64,000 nucleotides of DNA from contig JAUDYN010000001.1 in NCBI GenBank assembly GCA_030407005.1, positions 3,658,001 to 3,722,000 of the forward strand. The letters are read 5' to 3'. Both the position numbers and the translations under genes were made by a program. The stretch comes from Desarmillaria ectypa. Its lineage: Eukaryota > Basidiomycota > Agaricomycetes > Agaricales > Physalacriaceae. Below, piece after piece: positions 10,184-48,981 of this stretch (position 1 is its first letter; the number at the start of each line of letters is the position of its first letter). The notes beneath the pieces are model-generated. The model made no database searches, was not told where the DNA came from, and saw only the letters and a list, made by a program, of their open reading frames with translations.

Positions 10184-10604
10184 TGTTATGATTTTTCTGT
10201 TATCTTATCTTATCCAAGTCATATCCATGACTTATCTATCTAATCTATTCAAGAATCCAACTTGTATCCAGCTACTCACCAGTTACCACCCTTGTTCTCA
10301 CCGTCTGTCACCCCAGATGCTTTCCATTGGTTATATGATCCTCCCGGACCACCACACTTCAACACCATTTGTGCATGGACCTTAATGTTTCATCTATATA
10401 TAATGCTGTAGAAATACTATATAAGTAGAGTAAACTACACTGTTGTACTCTATCTCTTGTTTAAATTCAAATCATATACTCCTTGACTTGCACTACACTA
10501 AAGACTAAAGCTTCTACTTCTCTATACAGATATTGTTCGAATGCGTAACAGCCTAGAGAAGTCAGCTGATGTCCCAAGTCATGTGCCCAAGGTGGTGCCT
10601 AACA
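10184..10604 (+). repeat. Family-A 3' LTR
   Basis: A 421-bp LTR from TGTTATGATTTTTCTG to CCTAACA, directly after the polypurine tract AACAAGGGGG (10171-10180). It has a TATA box (ACTATATAAGTAG near 10418) and the ATCTCTTGTTTAA segment used for self-priming in this subfamily. Right of it another pol gene resumes in mid-protease, so this element was inserted into that one; the five bases after it are GGAGT. Confidence 0.85.
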
Positions 10605-12247: not shown

Positions 12248-12670
12248 TGTTACGATTTTTCCATGATCTTATCTTATCCAAGTCATATCCATGACTCATC
12301 CATCTAATCTAGACCAGAAACTGACTCGTATCCAGCTATTCGCTGGCTACCACCCTCGTTCTCACCATCTGTCACCCCAGACACTTTCTATTGGTTCTAT
12401 GATCCTCCTGGATCGTCCAGCTTCGACACTGTTTGTGCATGGACCATAGCGTTTCATCTAATTATAACACCATAGAAATACTATATAAACAGAGTAAACT
12501 AGTCAGTTGTACTCTATCTCTTGTTTAAATTAACATCATATACTTCTTGCTCGCACAACACCAAAGACTCTTAGCTTCTATATCTCTCATTGGGTGATCA
12601 TTCGAACATGTAATGGCCCAGAGATATCAGCTGACCGTCCCAAGTCATGTGCCCAAGTCAGTACATAACA
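12248..12670 (+). repeat. 5' LTR of the nested chromovirus
   Basis: 423 bp, TGTTACGA to ACATAACA. It matches the 3' LTR at 20254-20676 except for 16 transitions, all at CpG sites. It contains the promoter described separately. Confidence 0.95.
12482..12528 (+). promoter_or_regulatory. LTR promoter: TATA box and inferred transcript start
   Basis: A TATA box TATATAAA lies at 12482-12489. The segment ATCTCTTGTTTAA at 12516-12528 starts 34 nt after the first base of the TATA box, where transcription would begin, and is complementary to the primer-binding site. The start site is inferred, not mapped. Confidence 0.7.
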
Positions 12671-12683
12671 TTAAACAAGAGAT
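12671..12683 (+). other. Self-complementary primer-binding site
   Basis: TTAAACAAGAGAT directly follows the 5' LTR. It is the exact reverse complement of 12516-12528, the inferred 5' end of the element RNA, so the transcript could fold back and prime its own minus strand, as known for Tf1 of fission yeast. It does not begin with TGG, so a tRNA primer is unlikely. Confidence 0.8.
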
Positions 12684-12729
12684 TATCCCCTTCTCTTCTA
12701 TTATGCTAGCTGTATAGAAGATATTCTTC

Positions 12730-15432
12730 ATGTCTGGAGAAGACAGAAACTCTCAAGAACCTCGAACCGTCTCCCTCAGCATTGCCATTGGTGGCGCCAT
12801 ACTATTGTCTTTTTTCACGGTCCTTGCCATACTAATTTACGAGGAAGAACTCCGGGCACTGCTGAGAAGGCAGCCCCGACGACTAAACAAAGAACCCCAC
12901 CCTGCCCCGCCCACCAACAATGTCCTTCCCAGGGGGATACCCCCCGCAAGACTGGGAGAATGAGAGACAGTTGCACTCATTCGTCCCCGGGCTCGATTCA
13001 CCATTGGCCCCGCCTCCTCCTCTGAGGAGAGCGATAACTCGCGACCCCCATCTCCGGGGATTGCAGAACTTCGGGCCCAGATTGCCCAATCCGCTCGCAC
13101 CTATAACGCGAGAGCCATCCTCCTCCGCTACCAGATGGAATGACCCACCGTCGCACTGGAGCGACCAGCAGCCGGCTCTACGGAGGCCAAAGAATACGCG
13201 CGGGACATACGGGCTGTGATGGATGAACCCCGGCCCCCCCCTCATCCTCGAACCCCCACCCTCCGCATATCCCAGTGGAGGTCCGATTCCCCATCGCCTG
13301 ACAGTGACGGCAGTAGAAGGTCTGGTCACTCTGGACCCCAACACCCTGATGATCCCAGCATGGATCGGACCCACCCCTATGGCCCCTGGAGCCATGAGCG
13401 GTGGCCAGACGAGGGAGAAGAAATCTCTCTCTCCTCCCTCCCCGTCATCGAAATCTCCAATGATGAGTCCGATGATGACATCATCAGAGACAATGCCCTG
13501 GTCCCGACCACTCCCCGTGCTGCTGACGACCCCTTCAATCCATGTGGGGACGACTTCATCTGGCCGGACCTCTCCGAGGTTGACCGGAGACTATTCGGTC
13601 CATTCCGGACCACAGCATGGGAGGTTCAACGAAGGGATGTCGAAGCCCATGACCTCTGGGAAGAGCCCAGAGTCGAGATGGATGAGTGGCTCACCCTTAA
13701 CAGGGGCGACCCCATCCAAGTCCCCTTCGATGGGCCCAGTAACTACAGGGCCAACATCGTCAACCACCGGATTTGCGCAAACTGCAACTGGTCAATTTTC
13801 CGTCCCTCCGCTGGGGATCGTTTTCCAGGGTTACAACCCTGGACTGCTCAGGAACAGCAGGAATTGGAGCGGACCCTCCAGCACTTATGGAGGCTGGAGG
13901 TGGCAAGAGAGAAATGAGTGGGGGCAAGAGCCCCAGTACAATACGTTAACCTACGATACAGGTTACTACGGTGGGATGGAATACCACCATCCCCAATATG
14001 AAATTTATCTGGATCACCCACCGGATACTCTGGTCATAAGCCCACGACCACTTCCTGACTTGCCCCTGCATCACAGGGTGCATCACCAAGGATACCACCC
14101 CTATCAGGGTGGCAGTCTTCTCTTTGCAGGGGCGGGGGAAGAAATGGAAGCCGAAGGAGCCCCTGCAGGAAACGCCACTGCAGGGGTGTCAAGAACCCCT
14201 GCCACGGCAGAAGAAACCTGGCAGCAAATGTGGAATGAGCTGCTGGAGAAAGAGCAGCGCATAGCGGAAATGCGTGAAGAGCTTGACAAGGAGGACTCCG
14301 CCTGCAAGACATTGGCGGACTACCTCCGAGTCCAAGAGCGGGAGAAGGAGCCAGAGAGGGGAAGACCCCTGGGGCCGCCAAGAAGCTACCCAGGATACCG
14401 GCCGGATCGATTTTTGATCCCAAGACCGCCCCCTGGTCAGGGACCACCTGACCCAATCCTGAACCCGGTCGGGAATGCCGCCGCCAATGCCCCATATTTG
14501 GGCATCAAACCAACCCTCGTCAAGGTCCCCACCCTGTTCAAAGAGGATCATGACAACATTGAACGCTTCATAGGCGATTGCATCACCTATTTCAAAGTGT
14601 TCTGACACTACTTCCAGGTGCCGTCGCACCTGGTACTGTTCGTGATGTCCCATTTTGAGGGCGCCACCAAGGACTGGTGGGTCTACAAGAGACCCGAATA
14701 CTGGGTGGGCGATGCCTTTGATGGCACTGCTGCCCACTCCGATACCCCAACTGGGCCAACTTCGTCGACCTGGTCACATGACAATTCCGAGATCCCGCGA
14801 TCGAGGAAATACACAAAAAGCACATGTTCGACTTGTGTATGGGAGCACAGCCTGTCTCCCACTATTTCCAGAAGCTAGAAGAAGAAGCCAAGTTAGCGGG
14901 CCAGAGATCCGATGAGGTCAAACACAGCGCGATGGTGAAGGCAGTGCGACTGGGAGTGCCCAGCTCATACATGACCTTCATATCAAACATGGGCATGAGT
15001 ATTCCACGCTCATATCCGGAGTGGAAGGAATGCATCCTCTGGATGTATGAAGAGAGACAGCAGAAGTGGGTCTTTGACCAGACCATGAGTATGCCTCGGG
15101 ACGGCCAGAAGCAGGGCCCGCATCCCCAACAACAGCAGCCCAGCAGCAAGAACACTGCTGGGGCGACAAGTTCCTCGGCTCCAAAGCCGACTGCTGGGAG
15201 CAGAGGAACCAGTCACGATGCTGGAACCGGTAAGTGGACGACATACAGAGGGGCGGGGAAGCCCATGGACCTAGACCGGCAACGAGCCGAGGGGCGCTGC
15301 TATAGGTGTGATCAAAAGGGTCACCTGAGCAGGGATTGCCCTATGAGAAAAGAGAAGAATGTTGTGAGATATGTGGGGCCCACTGACGCAGTGGTGCCAA
15401 GCACCTCCAAGATCGAGGAGGTAAAAGAGTAG
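12730..15432 (+). pseudogene. Gag of the nested chromovirus (zinc knuckle, N-terminal hydrophobic segment)
   Basis: Structural protein forming the virus-like particle. ATG at 12730 opens a protein with one strongly hydrophobic segment at residues about 17-40 (SLSIAIGGAILLSFF, then TVLAILIY), then a long Pro/Ser/acidic region, a coiled-coil-prone segment (about 14220-14340), a capsid-type region (FKEDHDNIERFIGDCITYF near 14540; HYFQKLEEEAKLAG near 14860) and a CCHC zinc knuckle CYRCDQKGHLSRDC (about 15299-15340). It is broken: TGA at 12961 and near 13138, a frame change near 13900, TGA at 14603-14605 (the copy at 42977 has CGA there), and a one-base loss near 14738 where relatives read HFRYP. 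The last part 14824-15432 is intact for 202 codons. It ends with TAG at 15430-15432, the first base of the hairpin. Confidence 0.85.
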
Positions 15433-15464
15433 GGCGTCAAGGGTTCGATTCCCCTTGCACGCCC
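15432..15464 (+). promoter_or_regulatory. Hairpin at the gag/pol junction (candidate -1 frameshift signal)
   Basis: GGGCGT (15432-15437) pairs with ACGCCC (15459-15464) and CAAGGG (15438-15443) with CCCTTG (15452-15457), with C15458 bulged and a loop carrying TTCGATT. Its first base is the G of the gag stop TAG. An AAAA run ends 5 nt before the stem. The -1 frame is open through the hairpin into pol. Equivalent hairpins occur at 37672-37704 and 43806-43838 with compensatory base changes. The loop region GGTTCGATTCC equals the pol III B-box consensus. Confidence 0.7.
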
Positions 15465-18400
15465 AAGTCTCAAGGTGTGTCCTCGGTTTCTGTGGGTTGG
15501 ACTAATTATTATGAAAATAGAAAAATACCTATGAAAACAAATATATCTATGACTTCACCGAAGCCGAAGACAAAGAAGAAAGAATCATCAAGAACAAACA
15601 GGTACGTTATCCTTCTGGAAGAAGCTGATACAAGTATCTGTAGTGACAAATCCTGAGCCTCCGATGAACTGGAGCGGGACTTGCCAAGTGGTGTTGGCAC
15701 TGCAACAAAGTCCAACGAGCAGTGCTCACCGGATATGCCGCTGAGCGCACAGCGACGAGCAGGGACCAGTAGGTGGGACTCCTTCGGGCCTCCCAGAAGT
15801 CCGACCGTCCCAGTACCCACCTCGAGCAGCAGGGCAAGCTCACCAGTTCCACCAGGGTCAGCAGAGGACCAGGACAGTGCCTCTAACCAAGGCCAGGACC
15901 GACGACCCAGACAAACTGGTCCGGGGAGTGGAAAACTTGATGAAGCTGAGTACCAAACTGGGCCGGCAAGTCAAAGGGTCAACAACCGTGTGAAGGTCGC
16001 CTTAGGCACTAGCTGGGAGTCAATGACCAAGGAAATTCAAACTCCGTCGCGAGTGGTGCCAGCTGAGGAAAAGGGACAGGATCTCACTAGCGCCCAGGCA
16101 GTAAAAAGGGGGCATTTCAGCAGAACTACCATCATTGAAGTACCCGACGAAGAAGATGACATGGCTTTTAGGATGTGGCAAGTCAGCCAATCCAAAGCCA
16201 GTACCCCGATATCCAGAACACCAGAACCACAGAACCTTGACCTTCTGAACATACGGGGAAGCATTGAACCCGACTCCTATCCTAACAAGAGGGTATCAAA
16301 TGCTTCCGAATGCACGGGGAAGCAGAACAAGTCTTCCGAACGCATGGGAAAGCAGGACGGATTCCAATGGCTCAAACCATTTGGAATTGACTGGACGATG
16401 CATGCAATATGCGACTCCAAGAACTTGGCAAATGCCAAAGCGGCTCTCTCCATTTGGGTACATCCCAAACGACTTGGAGAGATCGACAATGAGCTCATTC
16501 GAAGCTTACAGACAGGAGGGAGCACTGCCCGGGAACAGCTCTATGAATTACACGAACCCATTTGTTATATTCGTGGCACCAAGAGTTCCGGACAGGACTT
16601 CTTGGTAAACATTCAACTTTCCCCATGTACCGGGAAAAAGATATTGACAACCCGAGCGTTGTTGGATAGTGGTTGCATGGGCAGCTCTATCAACCAAACA
16701 TACGTTCAGCAACACCAGCTGGACACCAGGAAGGCTGCAGCCCCTATACCAGTCTATAATGCCGATGGAACGCGCAATAAGGCAGGAGATGTCACCGAGT
16801 TCATAGAACTTCGAATGACAATTGGAGGACATAGCAAGCGCATTGATCTTGCAGTCACAGACCTCGGTTCCAAGACCATGTACTTGGGCCATGACTGGCT
16901 TAAACGCCACAACCCTTTCGTTAACTGGAAGGCAGGAACCTTGACATTCGGATGATGTCATTGCATTCAGAACCACTTCACCTTGCCCGACACAGATGAA
17001 GAAGACCGATGGGATGAAGAGCTCGAGGAAGGAGAGAGTATTCTTGCCGTTAACATGCAAGAAGAAATCATACTTCGTGCCGTCCATCATGCAAATGAGT
17101 TGGCTGCAGCAACCAATGCTGAAAAACTGAAGCAGACATTTGAGAAGCTCGTGCCTCCTCAGTATCAAAGCTTTAAAGATCTATTCTCTAAGGAAAGCTT
17201 TGACGAATTACCGGAAAGAAGACCCTGGGACCATGCCATCGAATTGGTCTCCAATGCGAAATCTACCTTGGATTGCAAGGTGTACCTGCTCAATCGCAAT
17301 GAGCAGGAACAATTGGACAAGTTCTTGGATGAGAACTTAGACTCAGGATGCATCTGTCCCTTGAAATCTCCCTTCGCCTCTCCCTTCTTCTTCGTTAAGA
17401 AAAAGAATGGCTCCCTACGACCGGTTCAGGATTACCGGAAGTTGAACGAAATGATGATCAAGAATCATTATCCCCTTCCACTCATTTCTGAGCTAATCGA
17501 CAAGCTATGGGGAGCCAAGTACTTCTCTAAGCTGGACATATAATGGGGCTACAACAATGTCCGTATTCGAGATGGAGATAAAGAAAAAGCAGCATTTAGA
17601 ACTAACCAAGGACTCTTTGAGCCCACGGTTATGTTCTTCGGACTCACCAATTCACCTGCTACATTCCAGTGGATGATGAATGACATATTCAAGGATTTGA
17701 TCGCCAGAGGAAAAGTCACCATTTACCTTGACGACATACTCATATTCATGAAATCCTTGTCAGAACACCGGAGCATAGTACGACAAGTACTCCAATGACT
17801 TCAAGAGAACAAACTGTTCCTCAAAGCAGAGAAATGCGAGTTTGAGGTACTCGAAACCAAATACCTAGGAGTGATCATCAGCGAAGATGCCATTCGCATG
17901 GACCCAGTCAAAATTGCAGGAATAGTGGAATGGCCGACGCTGACAAAGAAGAAGGAGTTACAATCCTTCTTAGGATTCACGAACTTCTACCAAAAGTTCA
18001 TCAAGGACTACTCCAAGGTAGTACGTCCCCTTACCCAGTTAACCGGAAAAGTAGACTGGACGTGGGGACCAGAACAAGAATGAGCATTTAATCAACTCAA
18101 GAAGCTGATGACAACAAACATAGTTCTTACGATCCCTTCAGACAATGGAAAGTTCCAAGTAGAAGCCGACGCGAGTGACGGAGCTATTGGCGCCATCCTA
18201 AGCCAAGAAAAGGAAGGCAAATGGAGACCCATCACCTTCATGTCAAAGGCGCTCACCACTACCGAGCACAATTACGAAATCTACGACAAGGAGTTGCTCG
18301 CAATCATGCTGGCACTAGAGAAGTGGCGCCATTATCTCATGGGTGCCAAAGAGACCGTCGAGATCTGGACCGACCACCAGAATCTCCAGTACTTCCAGAA

Positions 18401-20221
18401 ACCCCAGAAGTTGAATCACTGACAAGCTCGGTGGGTCACCGAATTAGCAGAATACCACTTTGTCCTGCAACACAAAGCTGGAACCGCTAATCAAAAGGCC
18501 GATCTTCTCAGTAGATGAGACGATCATGATCAGGGAAAAGAAGACAATAAAGATGTTGTCGTTCTATCCCCGGAACACTTTTGAGCGTTGGTATTACCAA
18601 CAATGGAAGAGAGATTCACGCGTATAAGAGACACAACAAAACAGAAGAACCAGTGGGACCAGGGGATAGAGAAATCCCTTAACCATGAAAGAGGAATCAT
18701 GCAGGAAGACGAAATCCTGTGGTACGATGGACAAGTCTACATTCCCAACAACTCGATGCTATGCGGTGAGATCATCGCCCAATTCCATGATCACATCACC
18801 GCTGGACACCCGGGAATTGCCAAGACCAAAGAACTCATACTTCATGAGTATTGGTGGCCAAAGATGAAGAAGGATGTGGAGTCATACATCAAAGGATGTG
18901 AGACTTGCCAAAGAATGAAGAGCAATACGCAGGCCAAGGCTGCACCTCTTCACCCCAATGTAATTCCAGAAGCACCATGGACACATATCTCGGTTGACAT
19001 GGTAACAGGACTCCCAGAATCAGAAGGATTTGACGCTCTACTAGTCATTGTAGACTGTTTCTCCAAGAATATCCTCTTGATTCCATGCAACGAGGAGTTA
19101 TCCACAGAAGGATGGGCACTGATACTTCGCAATCAGGTATATGCGAAGCATGGAATGCCACAAGTGGTCATCTCGGACAGAGGACCTCAATTTGTTTCAG
19201 CATTCATGAAAGAACTATACCGAATGCTGAACATCACCCAGAATGCGTCCACAGCCTATCATCCGCAGACAGACAGACAGACTGGGTAGCATGGCTACCA
19301 CTAGCCGAATTCGCCCACAATAACCAAGTTCACTCAGCCACGGGCAAAAGTCCTTTCATGATCCTATACGGACGAAACCCCTGACTCATTCCTGAGTCAA
19401 TATAGAAAACCAGCTTCGCAAACCCTGCAGCCGTCGACTTCATGGAAACTATGGCCAAGGTCCATAAGGAGGTCCATGAAGCATTGGAAAAGGCCGCGGG
19501 GCAAATGAAGGCGCAATATGACAAGAAGAAACAGACTCAACGAGAGTACCAGATTGGAGACAAGGTATGGCTTGATACCGCCAACCTCCATCTTCCACGA
19601 CCAAAGAAAAAGCTCGACGACAAGCGAATGGGACCATTCAAAATCGTAGAAAAGTCAGGAGCAGCAGCATACAAGCTAAAGCTGCTGCCACACTGGAAGA
19701 TCCACCCCTGGTTCAATGAGAAGCTGTTGACTCCATACGTCATGCCCTCATTTGTGAACCAAGAACAACTGCCACCTCCTCCTCCGGACCTTGTCGATGG
19801 TCAGAAAGAATATGAAATCAAAGAAGTCTTGGACTCACGCACCAGAAAGGTACAGTCCAAGCGAGGACAACCATCTAGGGAAGTCACGGACTACCTAGTC
19901 AAATGGAGAGGATGGACTTGTGAGCACAACTCATGGGTCCGAGAGAACGAAATGACGAATGCTTTGGAGGCGATCCAAGAGTACCAGGCTAGCGTAAACC
20001 GCACCGTATACACTCCAAAAATCGCAACCAGGAAAATAGTGGTCAAGATACTGGACCACGAATACTCAGAACATGGCGACGTGGCCTACCTCGCCAAAAG
20101 AAAAGATGGACACATCAAATGGATTATCAATCCAGATGAAGAAATATGGAAGAACTTGATTGATCAGTACTGGATCAGTCAAATCACAACACAGTTCGAC
20201 ACCCCTTTGGAAGAGCCTTAG
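15432..20221 (+). pseudogene. Pol of the nested chromovirus (PR-RT-RNaseH-IN-chromodomain)
   Basis: One frame runs from the gag stop to 19289, then shifts. Domains: linker with DEEDDMAF, protease LLDSGCMGSSINQTYVQQH (about 16660), reverse transcriptase with YLDD at 17724-17735, RNase H (about 18140-18500, TDHQNLQYF), integrase HHCC finger (about 18785-18915, ending CETCQRMKS), DDE core (HISVDMVTGLPESEG near 18985; VISDRGPQFVSAFMKE near 19165), C-terminal domain (WLDTANLHLPRPKKKLDD) and chromodomain DYLVKWRGWTCEHNSWV (about 19890-19940), which would steer integration to methylated histone marks. Stops at about 15654, 16953, 17541 (TAA), 17796, 18081, 18420 and 18516 are TGA or TAA where CGA, CAA or similar is expected. 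About 64 bp are deleted near 19270-19286 relative to the copy at 9125, changing frame. The ancestral protein probably began by frameshift from gag, since no upstream ATG is needed. Confidence 0.9.
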
Positions 20222-20250
20222 CAGTCGGGACAACTGCTTTAACAAGGGGG
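20220..20250 (+). other. Hairpin over the pol stop and polypurine tract
   Basis: AGCAGT (20220-20225) pairs with ACTGCT (20233-20238) around a 7-nt loop; the pol stop TAG (20219-20221) overlaps the first arm. It is followed by AACAAGGGGG (20241-20250), the polypurine tract for plus-strand synthesis, and three bases later by the 3' LTR. The same hairpin and tract occur at the end of every family-A copy here. Confidence 0.7.
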
Positions 20251-20253
20251 TAA

Positions 20254-20676
20254 TGTTATGATTTTTCCGTGATCTTATCTTATCCGAGTCATATCCATGA
20301 CTCATCCATCTAATCTAGACCAGAAACTGACTCGTATCCAGCTATTTGCCAGCTACCACCCTCGTTCTCACCGTCTGTCACCCCAGACACTTTCTATTGG
20401 TTCTATGATCCTCCCGGATCATCCAGCTTCGACACTGTTTGTGCATGGACCATAGCGTTTCATCTAATTATAACACCGTAGAAATACTATATAAACAGAG
20501 TAAACTAGTCAGTTGTACTCTATCTCTTGTTTAAATTAACATCATATACTTCTTGCTCGCACAACACCAAAGACTCTTAGCTTCTATATCTCTCATTGGG
20601 TGATCGTTCAAACGTGTAATGGCCCAGAGATATCAGCTGACCATCCCAAGTCACATGCCCAAGTCAGTACATAACA
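20254..20676 (+). repeat. 3' LTR of the nested chromovirus
   Basis: 423 bp, TGTTATGA to ACATAACA, followed by the target duplication GAATC at 20677-20681. See the 5' LTR for the comparison. Confidence 0.95.
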
Positions 20677-25011: not shown

Positions 25012-25424
25012 CAACTTGGACACGTGACTTAGGGTCATCAGCTGATCACTCTGGGCTGTTACACATTCGAACAGTCACCCAATATGAGCAATAAAAGCTT
25101 TAGACCTTCTGTGTTGTGTAGACAAGAGGTATATGATTGTAATTTAAACAAGAGATAGAGTACAACTGTGTAGTTTACTCTACTTATATAGTATTTCTAC
25201 AGTGTTATATATAGATGAAACACTAGAGTCTATGCACAAATGGTGTCGAAGTATGGTGGTCTGGAAGGATCATACAACCAATAGAGAGTGTCTGGGGTGA
25301 CATATGGTGAGAATGAGGGTGGTGACCAGCAAGTAGCTGGATACGAGTCAGATTCTTGAGTAGATTAGATGAATGAGTCATGGATATGACTCAGATAAGA
25401 TAAGATAATGGAAAAATCATAACA
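25012..25424 (-). repeat. Solo family-A LTR with target duplication ATAAA
   Basis: 413 bp in minus orientation, starting TGTTATGATTTTTCC at 25424 and ending GCCTAACA at 25012, flanked by ATAAA (25007-25011 and 25425-25429). Contains the TATA box and ATCTCTTGTTTAA. The matching site in copy 2 near 49650 has no LTR. Confidence 0.93.
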
Positions 25425-35131: not shown

Positions 35132-37672
35132 TTCCCAACCACTTCATCACTGCTAGATGCAACAAAACACAAACCTATGCCTGAAGAATGAAAAAACCAG
35201 CAAAACATAACTCTTGGAACCACTATTAGTGGCACAATATTACTGGTGATATTCACCACCCTTTTTGTACTAGCTTACAAAGAGGAAATCAGAGTGTGCT
35301 TATGCAGACAAAGAAACCCACAACCATGACTTCCCCCTCACCCTTCCCCTCACCCTCTCCATGTCCTCCAATGACCAGAAGCCACAAGAGTGGAAGCCAC
35401 AAGTTTGGACATTGAAGTCTAAGAAAACCTCTCCTGTCCCTGGGCCCACTTTGTGAATTCCTCTGAGGAGTTCCCAGTGCATAATGGGTCCTCTGCCAGC
35501 TCCAACATCAGGGTGGAATGACCCTCCTCCCCCATGCCAGAACACCCATGGAATATATGGGCTACAATGCAGCACCGAGAGTCCTCTCCTCTCCCCTACA
35601 CCCTGTCTGCCCATTCTGCCCATGCAAGGATGGGACACTACAACCATGCCAGGATGGAAGATCCCCACCCCTGGACTCATCCCTATGGTCCCTGGGCCAT
35701 TGAAACCCAAGAGTGAGGCTCTTAGCCTAGTGAAGGAACAAACTTCTCCTCCTCCCTCCCTCTCATTGAAATCTGAGACAACAACTCCTCTGACAGTGAG
35801 ACCTCAACCACTCCCCATGCCACTGATGACTCATTCAATATTGATGGAGCTGATTATGAGTGGCCCAAGTTATCTGACATCAACAGGGGACTATTTGGCC
35901 TCTTCAGGACTGCCACCTGGGAGTTACGATGCACTGACATGGAGGCTCAGACCCCTTGGCCCTGAATTCACCCAGAAATGAATGAGTGGCTGGCCCTTAA
36001 CAGGGGCAACCCTGTATGAGGACCCAACCCAGGCTCTAACATCCACACCCATATATGAGCAAATAAATTCCATGAGTTATATCTGCCTGCAGCAGGAGAC
36101 CTGGCCCCAGGTCTATGACCAAGAACAATCAAGGAGTGGTGCATATTGGGACATGTATTATAGGATCTGGCAAGGAGAGAGGCAAACCAAAGAGAGTAGG
36201 TGGGGTGCAGAGCCCAATTTTAGTAGTCTTACAGGCTACTATGGCATGCTAAAATCATTCTAGCCCCAAAATATATTCTATCCACAATATTCACCTGACA
36301 CCCCTGCCTTAATACCCTAACCCTTTCCAGACTTGCCACCCCCATGAGTCTGACAAATCAGCTATCATTCCTATCAGGGTGGTAGTACTCTCTTTGCAGG
36401 CACAGGCAAAGAATCTGAAGCAAGTTCTTTCACCCCTGCAGAACCTCTGTCTGCCACAGCAGAGGAACTTTGACAACAGATGCAAGCCACACTAGCCAAG
36501 AAAGAACAGCACATTAAGGAAATGTATGAGGAACTGGCCAAAGAAGAAGCCATCAGGAATGAGATGACAGAATATCTCCAAGAAAGGAAAAGAACCAGAC
36601 CAAGGAAGGCCAACAAAACCTCCAAGAGAATCCCCCCCCTGACCAGACTGATACTCAATTCTCCAACCATCCCCTAGAAAAGGACCTCCTGACTTGATAC
36701 CAAACCCCATCAGAAATGCCCCTGATAATGCTCCCTATATGGGTATCAAACCCATACTCATCCAGCCTCCAAAGCCATTCAAGGAGGATCATAATGACAT
36801 CAAATACTTTGTAGGCAATTGCACCATCTACTTCAAAGTGTTCCATCACTATTTCCAGATGCCATTGCACCTGGTATTATTTGCAACCTCCCACTTTAAG
36901 GGGGCCATCAAAGACTGGTGGGTTTATAAAAGACCTGAATTTTGAGTCAGTGATGCCTGGGATGGCACCACCACCCACTTCTGATATCTCTCATGGGAAG
37001 ACTTCATCGACATGCTATCTTGACAATTCTGGGACCCTGCAATCGAGAAGATCCATGAGAAGTGCATGTTTGACTTACATATGGGAATCCAACTGGCATC
37101 CCATTACTTTCAGAAATTGGAAGAAGAGGCCAAATTGGCAGAACATTGGGCCAACAAACATGACTGTGGAGCAATGGTCAGGGCAGTCTGCCTTGGCATT
37201 CCCTCCTCCTACATCATGTTCATTTCCAACATGGGTATAAACATTCCCTGCACCTATTCCAAGTGGAAGGAGTAGATTATGCACATGTATGAGAAACACC
37301 AGTGCAAATGGGTCTTCAACCAGACCATCAGAATGCTACAAGAAGGACAGAAAAAGGACTCCTGTCCTCCCCCAACATCAACCCAGTGGCAAAGCTGCCA
37401 CTGGGGCAACAAGTCACTCAGCTCCAAAACTGATAGCCAATACCAGTCCTAGTCAGGATTTGAGTATGGGCTGATGGACAACATATGGGAGATTGGGACA
37501 ACTGATGGAAGTCAACCAATGAAAAGTGGAAGGTCACTGTTTTAGATGCAATGAAAAGGGTCACATGGCAAAGGATTGCCCTAAGAGAAAGGAGTTCAGA
37601 GACATTAGGTCAGTAGGGCCCACTAATGCAGTGGTGCTGCCTATGGCCACAATTGAGAAGGCAAAAGAATAG
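35132..37672 (+). pseudogene. Gag of the second-cluster family-A element
   Basis: A decayed homologue of the gag at 12730. The hydrophobic N-terminal segment is recognisable near 35200-35290, followed by the Pro-rich region, a coiled-coil-like stretch (about 36480-36570), capsid-like FKEDHNDIKYFVGNCTIYFKVFHHYF (read in parts, near 36780-36860) and MFDLHMGIQLASHYFQKLE (37066). The zinc knuckle near 37540-37580 reads CFRCNEKGHMAKDC across frames. Numerous stops and frameshifts. It ends with TAG at 37670-37672. Confidence 0.8.
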
Positions 37673-37704
37673 GTCAACAAGGGTTCGATTCCCCTTGCTT
37701 GACC
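37672..37704 (+). promoter_or_regulatory. Gag/pol junction hairpin, second copy
   Basis: GGTCAA pairs with TTGACC and CAAGGG with CCCTTG, bulged C at 37698, loop TTCGATT. The same position relative to TAG and an AAAA run as at 15432, with different stem bases. The -1 frame is open from here through 38017. Confidence 0.7.
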
Positions 37705-38017: not shown

Positions 38018-38443
38018 TGTTATGATCCATCTTAGGCATGTGACTTGGGATGTAAGTGGTTCTCTTGGGCTGTTATGCATTTGAACAATCACCCATGTAG
38101 AGAACTGAACTAGGTCTTTAGTGTAGTATGAGAAGAGGTATATAAATGTAATTTAGTCAAAAGATAGAGTACAACAGTGAAGTTTACTCTACTTATATAC
38201 TGTATATATGGTGTTTTATTAATAGGTGAAATGATATGGTCCATGAGAAAACAGTGCAGTTCATGAGAGGATGGTGTGAACTGAATGGATCATGGTCCAA
38301 TGAGAGGGAATAAGGGTGATGGTCTGTGTAAATGGGGGTGTTGGTCAGTAAGAGTGTCAATACAAATACAAACAATGGTTTGATTAGATGGATGAGTCAT
38401 GGATATGACTTGGATAAGATAAGATAATGGAAAAATCATAACA
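38018..38443 (-). repeat. 3' LTR of an inverted family-A element
   Basis: 426 bp in minus orientation (TGTTATGATTTTTCC at 38443 to CATAACA at 38018). The minus strand to its right has the polypurine tract and pol end. ATCTTTTGACTAA occupies the self-primer position. The five bases left of it are GGATG. Confidence 0.88.
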
Positions 38444-41475: not shown

Positions 41476-43806
41476 AGGTGGCTCCATTATCCTGCCCCCA
41501 GGTCAGCTTCAGGGCCTCTTCAACTGCTTTGTCCTCCTCTGAGGACACCAACCAGACCTCCACAAGAGCAATTCTTGCAACCCACTGGCTGGAACAACCT
41601 GCCCCCACTATAGTGGAAGAATATGTGCAGGACATATGGGCTCAGATCAATGACCCCCCTCTCCCCCCCCCCCCCATACTCCCTTCCCCCTTATCCCCAT
41701 TCCCCTACTTCCACCTGGCCCTATCTCAGGGCTTTACAATCCAACAATCCCAACATGGATCAAAACCACTCCTATGGACCCTGGGCTTGAGGAAGAGACT
41801 CTTGGCCCAGAAGGAGCATGAACTCCTCATCCTCACTCTCCATCATCGAGTTCTCCTCCTCAGACTCCAATGGGAGCTCAAACTCCAAAACAGAGTTCAT
41901 CCTGCTCACCCTGCTTCTCCCACTCACCTCCAACAGTCCCTTCAATCCTGATAGGACAAGCCAAAACTGGCCTGCCCTTATGGCCATTGACTGAGAAATA
42001 CTCGGCCCCATCACATCTATCACCTGGGAACTCAGACGAGCTGATGTTGAGGCCAGAATGGCCTGGCCCAAGCATTGTCCTGACATGGATGAGTGGCTTG
42101 CCCTCAACAGGGGCAATCTAATATGGGGACTGAACCCCAACACCACAATTCGAGCCCAGATTCATGCAAACAGGAACCAGGAGCTTTATCACCCCACCGT
42201 CAGCAATTTGGTACCAGGGCTATGCCCAAGGATGGTAGAGGAATGATGGGAGCTGGGTTGCTCTCTTCAACAGTTATGGCAACTGGAGCTCACCCGAAGA
42301 GAGGAGAATGGACCCAATGTCCAGCTTTGAAGGAGCTAGATATGAGTACAGACACTATGATAGGCTGGGATACTCTCAGCCCCAATATATAAATTTCCCC
42401 AACTATCCTCCTGACACCCCAGTCACAAGACTAAGACCCCTGCCTGATTCACTGCCTTATCATCAGGCATGACAACCAGGCTACCACCCCTATCAGGGTG
42501 GCAGTCTTCTCTTTGCAGGCACCAGAAAAGACATGAAAGCTGAAAATGCTCCTGCAGGACTGTCAACTACTACAGCAACAATAGTGGAACTCTGGCAAGC
42601 AACGAAAACCACACTAGCCAAAAAGGAAAGATACATTGCAGAGATGTGTGAAGAACTCGCAAAAAAAGAATCTGCCAAGAAGATGATGACAGACTATCTT
42701 CATGACAACAACAAAGGGAAGGAATCTAACAGGGGTAGATCCACTGAGCCACCAAGAGGCTATCTGGGTCTAAGGCTGGATCAATTTTCCATTCCAGGAC
42801 CACTCTCCAGAAGAGATCCTCCTGACTCTATCCCCAATCCCATTGGGAATGTGCCTGATGATGCCCCATATTTGGGCATCAAACCCATCCTCATCAAAGC
42901 TCTCCTTCCATTCAAAGAGGACCACAATGATATTGAATGCTTCATGGGTGATTGCATCACCTATTTTAAAGTGTTCCGACATTATTTCCAGGTGCTATTG
43001 CACCTGATCTTATTCATAACCTCTCACTTTGAAGAGGCCGCCAAAGACTGGTGAGTTTATAAGAGACCTGAATTCTGGGTTGGCAATTCCTATGATGGAA
43101 CTGCGCCCACTTCCGCTATCCTGCATGGGAAGACTTCATTGACCTGGTCTCATGCCAATTTTGAGATCCTGCTATTGAGGAGGTCCATGAAAAGCAGATG
43201 TTTGACCTCTGGATGGGAATGCAGCCTGCCTCCTATTACTTCCAGAAGTTAGAAGAAGAGGCTAAATTGGTGGGCTGACGGACCAATGAGCATAAGTGCG
43301 GCATCATGGTGAAGGCCATTTATCTAGGAGTACTATCCTCCTATATGACCTTTATATCAAACATGGGCATCAACATCCTGCACTCATATCTGGAGTGGAA
43401 GGAGTGCATTTCACAAATGTATGAAGAGCACCAGTGCAAATGGGTCTTTGACCAGACCACTGGCATGCCCCAGGATGGGCAGAAGAAGGACTCCCACCCC
43501 AATCCCCCACAACACCCCAGCAGCAAAGCTGCCACTGGAGTGACAAGTTACTCAGCCCCAAAGCTGACTGCTAATACAGAGGTGAGTCAGGATGCTAGAA
43601 TGGGCCAATGGATAACATATGGAGGGGCAGATAAACTGATGGAGATTGATCAACAATGAGCAGAGGATAAATGTTTCTAGTGTGATGAGAAAGGTCACCT
43701 GGCCAAAGATTGCCCTAAGAGAAAGGAGTTCAGAGACATTAGGTCAGTAGGGCCTACTAATGAAGTGATGCCACCTATGACCAAGATTGAGGAGGCAAAG
43801 GACTAG
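41476..43806 (+). pseudogene. Gag of the third plus-strand family-A element, 5'-truncated
   Basis: Starts downstream of the hydrophobic N-terminus. It contains the Pro-rich part (41640-41720, with a C run), coiled-coil-like segment (about 42580-42680), capsid-like FKEDHNDIECFMGDCITYF (42910) and a zinc knuckle about 43672-43720 (with CDEKGHLAKDC). It keeps CGA at 42977-42979 where the gag at 14603 has TGA. Stops and frame changes are frequent. It ends with TAG at 43804-43806. Confidence 0.82.
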
Positions 43807-43838
43807 GTTGACAAGAGTTCAATTCTCCTTGCTCAACC
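43806..43838 (+). promoter_or_regulatory. Gag/pol junction hairpin, third copy
   Basis: GGTTGA pairs with TCAACC, inner stem CAAG with CTTG plus weaker pairs, bulged C at 43832, loop TTCAATT (CpG lost). The outer stem again differs from the other copies but pairs fully. Confidence 0.65.
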
Positions 43839-48597: not shown

Positions 48598-48981
48598 TGT
48601 TATGATTTTTCTGTTATCTTATCTTATCTCATCATATCCATGACACAGTATATCTTATCACAGTTAACATTGACACATTCACTGACAACCACCCCAGTTC
48701 TCATCAACTAGCACCCTCATTTGCTCTTATTGGTCTATGATCCATCCAACTTCAATGCTGTTCTCTCATGGACCATACCATTTCATCTATTAATAATGCC
48801 ATACTTTCAGTATATAAGTAGAGTAGTTTTCACCCTTATACTCTAAATTACATTCATACACCTTCTACTACACTAAACCAAAGACCAAGCCCACCTCTCT
48901 AATTATAGGTGATTGTCTGAACATGAGACAGCCCAGAGAGAAGCTTATGTCCCAAGTCACATGTTAGATAGGGCTGTAACA
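48598..48981 (+). repeat. 3' LTR of the third plus-strand element
   Basis: 384 bp, TGTTATGATTTTTCTG to GCTGTAACA, next to the hydrophobin pseudogene of host copy 2. TATATAAG lies near 48820. The five bases after it are GTTAG; the matching left end is lost. Confidence 0.85.

Follow-up and report, generated by a model that had tools for sequence, protein, structure and literature searches.

A covarying hairpin at the gag stop codon of Tf1/sushi-like retroelements in Desarmillaria ectypa, a probable −1 frameshift signal

In three diverged retroelement copies within the window (the whole 64,000-nt stretch of DNA analyzed), a hairpin begins at the last base of the gag stop codon. The locus raises the question of how pol is translated beyond that stop and what part the hairpin plays in it. 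A preliminary description had proposed a programmed frameshift, perhaps of tRNA origin, or else an internal pol III or tRNA-mimic function. From comparison of copies across the genome, the hairpin is probably a −1 programmed gag-pol frameshift signal with a 12-bp stem, perhaps extended to a pseudoknot. The earlier reading thus stands in part: −1 frameshifting that involves an RNA stem agrees with the data on frames, stops, indels, and covariation, and its tRNA and pol III components do not.

The element and its hairpin

The LTR element that carries the first of the three hairpins contains the following features.

12248-20676, + strand: LTR element (LTRs of 423 nt, 96% identical; GAATC flanking both outer sides)
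12248-12670, + strand: 5′ LTR (96% identity over 423 nt with 20254-20676; GAATC outside)
12671-12683, + strand: presumed primer binding site (13-nt exact complement of LTR 12516-12528)
14782-15432, + strand: 3′ part of gag, with a CCHC zinc knuckle and the end ...EEVKE-TAG (Pfam zf-CCHC, 1.5e-06)
15657-16955, + strand: aspartic protease in the pol frame, past a CpG-type TGA (Pfam gag-asp_proteas, 3.4e-06)
18585-19289, + strand: integrase piece (Pfam H2C2 and rve)
19406-20221, + strand: C-terminal part of the integrase, with SH3 and chromodomain (Pfam SH3_Tf2-1 and Chromo)
20254-20676, + strand: 3′ LTR (matches the 5′ LTR; GAATC outside)

With a chromodomain integrase, a CCHC gag, an aspartic protease (28.0 bits, slightly below the Pfam cut-off of 28.2), and a presumed self-priming site whose 13-nt complement lies within the element's own LTR, these elements look like Tf1/sushi chromoviruses (Ty3/gypsy), an assignment made from the domains and the self-priming site. 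The primer site appears to be a self-priming, Tf1-like arrangement, in which the element would use no tRNA primer. The complementary LTR stretch (12516-12528) lies about 30 nt past a TATA-like box, as judged by eye. LTR-like stretches at 25125-25424, 10184-10483, 38134-38443, and 48598-48825 are 68 to 86% identical to the LTR at 12248, suggesting copies of several ages. ARAGORN also reports a tRNA-Tyr (anticodon ata) within the element, on the minus strand at window positions 13046-13139; this call is probably a false positive. Much of the difference among copies genome-wide (L001 to L131) consists of C-to-T and G-to-A changes at CpG, a pattern like that left by methylation or by RIP-like mutation. 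Such decay creates stops such as TGA from CGA, and it can imitate stem covariation.

The gag-pol junction of the element, together with the two other window hairpins, is laid out as follows.

15384-15386, + strand: pol-frame (−1) TGA that bounds the slip window on its upstream side, at a distance of 48 nt from the stem
15423-15426, + strand: A_AAA, presumed slip tetramer
15427-15431, + strand: 5-nt spacer GAGTA
15430-15432, + strand: gag stop codon TAG, whose G is the first stem base
15432-15464, + strand: 12-bp hairpin with bulged C (folding, alignment, RNAalifold)
15494-15501, + strand: octamer able to pair with the hairpin loop, candidate 3′ strand of a pseudoknot (84.3% of cells pair)
37672-37704, + strand: second hairpin copy (sequence, folding)
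43806-43838, + strand: third hairpin copy (sequence, folding)

In all three copies a 12-bp hairpin with one bulged C starts at the G of the TAG, and in the first copy the AAAA run ends 5 nt ahead of the stem, exactly as first described. The hairpin consists of an outer stem (15432-15437/15459-15464), an inner stem (15438-15443/15452-15457), a loop of 8 nt (15444-15451), and the bulged C (15458); the third window copy has a loop of 7 nt and a second bulge. Predicted folding energies of the three copies are −20.4, −16.5, and −10.7 kcal/mol (z = −4.6, −4.4, and −3.5, respectively), and for each of them 0 of 200 shuffles folded as well.

All hairpin data come from one genome, that of D. ectypa. 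At up to 3 mismatches, the 40.6-Mb genome contains 440 matches to a 20-nt core of the hairpin, and the reversed control yields 0. We rejected a chance origin of the hairpin. The first 50 distinct contexts of the core were all gag junctions, with the TAG directly at the stem in 49 and a 4-nt insertion at the TAG/stem site in one; among contexts collected with no upstream filter, the TAG abuts the stem in 69 of 71. Close study covered first 74 and then 82 copies. These sets leave out duplicates and copies with no TA before the stem or no AAAAGAGTA-like stretch (up to 4 of 9 positions changed), a filter that inflates the conservation of the TA and the A run. L071 and L100 were excluded ahead of the open-frame and diversity comparisons. 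The inner stem-loop is the lowest-diversity 21-nt window among the copies; its conservation was set aside, since most copies were found through the core motif, which inflates it. All 12 pairs are present in 33 of the 52 copies with both frames open in the stretch examined, versus 13 of the 30 others (P = 0.04). In IMG/VR, neither the one hairpin pattern nor the one integrase piece used as a query had a match.

Pairing in the stem across copies and lineages

Across 50 distinct hairpins, 93.2% of cells pair, against 35 to 53% when the partner strand is slid, and RNAalifold recovers the hairpin on 47 longer sequences. The covariation score is 0.287 versus 0.149 for shuffled alignments, with 0 of 500 shuffles as high. 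Two of five covariation measures failed to beat the shuffles on these 50 hairpins: pairs with two-sided changes (5 versus 4.1 shuffled; 99 of 500 shuffles as high) and further pair types (12 versus 12.7; 499 of 500 as high). Sound evidence of covariation is found at two pairs, namely pair 3 (GC in 21 hairpins, UA in 20, CG in 7, other in 2) and pair 6 (UA in 26, AU in 20, other in 4). The window copies themselves differ at these positions by genuine double transversions. In a set of 85 copies selected for T at position 3, with no constraint on base 31, the latter was A in 84, and positions 6 and 28 were A and T in 83.

The preliminary description had counted four of the six outer pairs as covarying. 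Positions 3 and 6 bear this out; positions 4 and 5 do not, being matched in 33 of 85 copies against 28.4 expected (P = 0.16, one subfamily). These two positions are a CpG opposite a CpG, and decay on either strand yields TG or CA, which can pair by chance; because they vary nearly independently, we excluded them as evidence. The weakest part of the covariation is the C-G subfamily at pair 3. Among the matches listed (100 of 195) for a pattern with base 31 unconstrained, 8 places have C at position 3, and their base 31 is G five times, A twice, and T once; a count of 7 CG among 8 hairpins is inflated, in that it combines 6 of the 8 listed places with two G copies obtained by a G-favoring pattern. 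At inner pair 8/25, a search for double changes gave three places: one a single change, one unrelated, and one a possible two-sided change to U.G in a decayed copy.

The changes at pair 3 also bear on whether the protein or the RNA is under constraint. In the pol frame the 5′ base of the pair is silent (Gly GGG, GGT, or GGC), and its partner changes the encoded amino acid to match, to Pro, Thr, or Ala in 46, 25, and 6 of 82 copies, respectively, in agreement with the earlier suggestion that RNA structure rather than protein lies behind the covariation. On a tree built from the flanks alone, pair-3 states require 6 changes and pair-6 states require 5. In four copies pair 3 is G-C and pair 6 is mismatched (T.T); these adjoin the G-C/T-A clade and look like intermediates, in a tree in which many forks are weakly supported and a U-A/A-U copy (L093) sits among those four.

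A deeper lineage was reached by a 441-nt BLAST search with one diverged copy; the hairpin lay within the query, and the hits were not chosen by it. Relatives extended down to 65% identity, and the ten next-best hits, 70 to 81% identical, were taken as the deep set. All 10 carry RTA AAA RAN TAG, with the TAG directly at the stem. The outer stem has 6 of 6 pairs in 7 copies, 5 of 6 in one, and 4 of 6 in two. Predicted folds have 9 to 12 pairs and z scores of −5.0 to −1.0, the fold of L126 (z = −1.0) being no better than its shuffles. Part of this lineage lacks the bulged C and has an unbroken 12-bp stem (L127, with further strings that were selected by pattern). Loops drift (ACTGATT, ATTGATT, CTCAATT, TCCAATT, and TCTGATT), and of the 10 copies one has the T-loop letters TTCRA and none has the B-box. 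With a full outer stem in 7 of 10 copies and a drifting loop, the stem is better kept than the tRNA-like letters.

Reading frames, presumed slip site, and candidate pseudoknot

The −1 (pol) frame overlaps gag and, counted from the stem, runs for 222 nt with no stop in 55 of 74 copies, whereas frame 0 after the TAG and the third frame are each open in 0 of 74. Of the 23 pol-frame stops, 19 fall at two TGA positions that resemble CpG decay; the TGA noted earlier in the pol frame of the third window copy is present and lies within the stem. While the window copies are decayed, some copies elsewhere in the genome are open in both frames over the stretch examined, so the −1 frame is not an artifact of decay. 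Between +33 and +220, relative to one reference, indel runs number 137 of 3 nt and 35 of 6 nt and only 13 of 1, 10, or 16 nt, counts in which related copies recur. Diversity at the third codon position tracks gag from −150 to −60 (0.333 versus 0.173 and 0.146) and pol from +120 to +220 (0.274 versus 0.142 and 0.166); in the linker from +33 to +120 it has no clear codon periodicity. A −1 stop stands at −48 in 73 of 74 copies and confines the shift to a short overlap of about 48 nt.

Within that overlap, A_AAR at −9 is present in 74/74 and 81/82 filtered copies, in 68/71 unfiltered contexts, and in 10/10 deep copies. It is the sole gag-frame Z_ZZN tetramer common to all 74; others occur in 1 or 2 copies each. 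The gag codons at the junction read NNA AAR RAN TAG, and the codon before AAR is mostly GUA or GCA and sometimes ACA or AUA. An X_XXY_YYZ heptamer, the canonical eukaryotic −1 sequence, is absent from the overlap in 72 of 74 copies; A_AAA_AA stands at the slip site in 2 of 74 and in deep copy L122. Since P-site codons such as GUA, GCA, ACA, and AUA re-pair poorly at −1, the site is not of the standard tandem type. The downstream structure is present, as an RNA stem after a 5-nt spacer. Of 21 Gag relatives, several of which carry the name Armillaria ostoyae or A. solidipes, 15 have K[VI]xx[VI]K[EDG] at the C terminus with 0 to 7 residues after it, and in 7 of these the motif abuts the stop; the residues encoded over the slip site are thus conserved. 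The peptide encoded by the hairpin had no convincing match among 116 related proteins.

Downstream of the hairpin, the octamer at +62 to +69 gave the best pairing with the loop among the offsets tried (the next reached 68% of cells). Eight loop-octamer pairs are attained by 33 of 82 copies, which are related, versus 12 of 410 shuffles. The pairing includes three or four G.U pairs, and its pairs are invariant or vary mostly at CpG-type sites; RNAalifold favors a weak separate hairpin at the octamer region. We suggest that the loop may pair with the octamer, about 30 nt downstream, in a pseudoknot. A block at 15479-15503, about 15 to 40 nt past the hairpin, has almost no transversions across copies (roughly GNGTCC...GGGTCRGACT); it could belong to a pseudoknot as its 3′ part, form another small hairpin, or reflect protein conservation.

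Weighing of alternatives and comparison with known systems

Other routes to Pol would dispense with a shift of frame at the A run. Termination followed by reinitiation, internal initiation, or ribosome bypass, with the hairpin aiding a restart in pol, is unlikely. Pol-frame ATGs are frequent at about +99 to +123, just 4 of 74 copies lack one within 222 nt, and bypass aided by an inverted repeat has been suggested for plant Sireviruses (PMC2829016); yet the position of the ATG varies, the stretch ahead of it is nearly free of pol-frame stops with indels nearly all multiples of 3 nt, as expected if it is translated, and the slip tetramer lies 5 nt ahead of the stem in every lineage seen. Frame-0 readthrough of the UAG, or removal of the stop by splicing, has next to no chance of being correct. 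The fixed UAG at a structured site resembles that of readthrough elements, and GAG|GTAAAA in family 1 resembles a 5′ splice site. However, all 74 copies have a frame-0 stop within 222 nt; over about 54 nt in the deep set, pol is open in 9 of 10 copies, frame 0 in 1, and the third frame in 2, and a frame-0 stop within so short a distance in 9 of 10 speaks against readthrough. A readthrough element was also rejected on the ground that pol is not in frame with gag. As to splicing, the T of the putative GT is C in 17 of 76 rows (3 of the 76 being unrelated sites).

Two further explanations would leave the hairpin without a role in frameshifting. It is very improbable that the stem lacks a function as RNA and is a side effect of protein conservation or of descent from a common repeat: copies found by the motif hardly vary in the inner stem and loop, and the copies share ancestry, but the outer stem covaries with one side silent and the other side changing the amino acid, and the loop drifts while the stem is largely kept. 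Scarcely any likelihood attaches to the hairpin being a T-arm-like minihelix (tRNA-derived, a substrate of RNase P or Z, or a B-box bound by TFIIIC) whose job is something other than frameshifting. The B-box GGTTCRANTCC is present in 66 of 82 copies, and the 11-mer GGTTCGATTCC has 172 matches genome-wide versus 10 for its reverse; the equation of the loop with this 11-mer applies to two of the three window copies and fails in the third. Yet these letters are lost in the deep lineage, where the stem is largely kept, and with them falls the case for a tRNA origin, a tRNA mimic, or a pol III function. Of 82 copies, one has an A-box match and three have a TTTT run within 150 nt; a pol III promoter was rejected, as was a tRNA-like minihelix. 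Moreover, the bulged C and the unequal strands misfit a 7+5-bp arm, a tRNA finder with bacterial settings calls nothing at the hairpin, Rfam has no match for it, and the element appears to be self-primed rather than tRNA-primed. A regular T-arm, AAGGGTTCRANTCCCTT, occurs five times in the genome, never with the extra C; one occurrence is a gag junction copy, and three resemble tRNA 3′ halves by eye. These last (L111 to L113), with the T-stem AAGGG/CCCTT, are not called by ARAGORN and are perhaps intron-containing tRNA genes. The likeness of the hairpin to a tRNA arm is probably accidental.

If the hairpin is a −1 frameshift signal, a ribosome decoding AAR would meet it, and the Lys-tRNA would slip from AAR to the overlapping AAA. 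The slipped ribosome would then read AGA NTA GGN into pol, and most ribosomes would halt at the TAG, yielding Gag alone. The loop may meanwhile pair with the downstream octamer. The full proposal, in which Gag-Pol arises by a single-tRNA slip on A_AAR with an unshifty P-site codon, stimulated by the 12-bp stem at the stop codon and a long pseudoknot closing about 30 nt downstream, is a tentative one that we hold to be possible and somewhat doubtful in its entirety. If a single-tRNA slip is true, the hundreds of natural variants in one genome are a ready mutational series, and a non-heptamer −1 signal with such variants would permit direct tests of what fungal ribosomes require of stem and slip site. 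The ratio of Gag to Pol matters for retroelement mobility. Elements of such a −1 type can also be misannotated by gene callers, and a wrong intron in the annotation of Tcn1 has been attributed to −1 frameshifting (PMC10085805).

At the level of titles and the beginnings of abstracts, we found no description of a gag-stop hairpin in the literature. The −1 signal of PEG10 comprises a heptamer and a pseudoknot. Like the junction described here, the −1 signals of HIV-1 and PEG10 have a slip site, a short spacer, and structured RNA, but HIV-1 uses the heptamer U UUU UUA (PMC4373837, PMC4598141), of a kind that 72 of 74 copies here lack. Z_ZZN, which a review gives as the minimal −1 frameshift sequence, shares with our site a single slippery AAR after A and a P-site codon that is not shifty; the natural examples in the passages compared are bacterial (PMC5009743), whereas the host here is a fungus. 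Among Tf1/sushi elements, whose tree includes marY1, MAGGY, skippy, and sushi-ichi, −1 frameshifting predominates outside the fission yeasts (PMC10085805). These chromoviruses share with the present elements a chromodomain integrase, self-priming, and pol at −1; the passages of that account compared here hold no covarying stop-codon hairpin, no slip site, and no use of the word "slippery" (PMC10085805). In the literature passages compared, a covarying stem locked onto the stop codon together with a missing tandem heptamer is undescribed. The nearest published likeness that we found is the gag/pol motif of the Sireviruses, 27 nt long with an 11-bp stem containing covariant bases and a 4-nt loop (PMC5009743). 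Sireviruses differ in being plant Ty1/copia elements with pol at +1, for which bypass or internal entry has been proposed (PMC2829016); they share with the D. ectypa elements a conserved, covarying stem at the gag/pol boundary.
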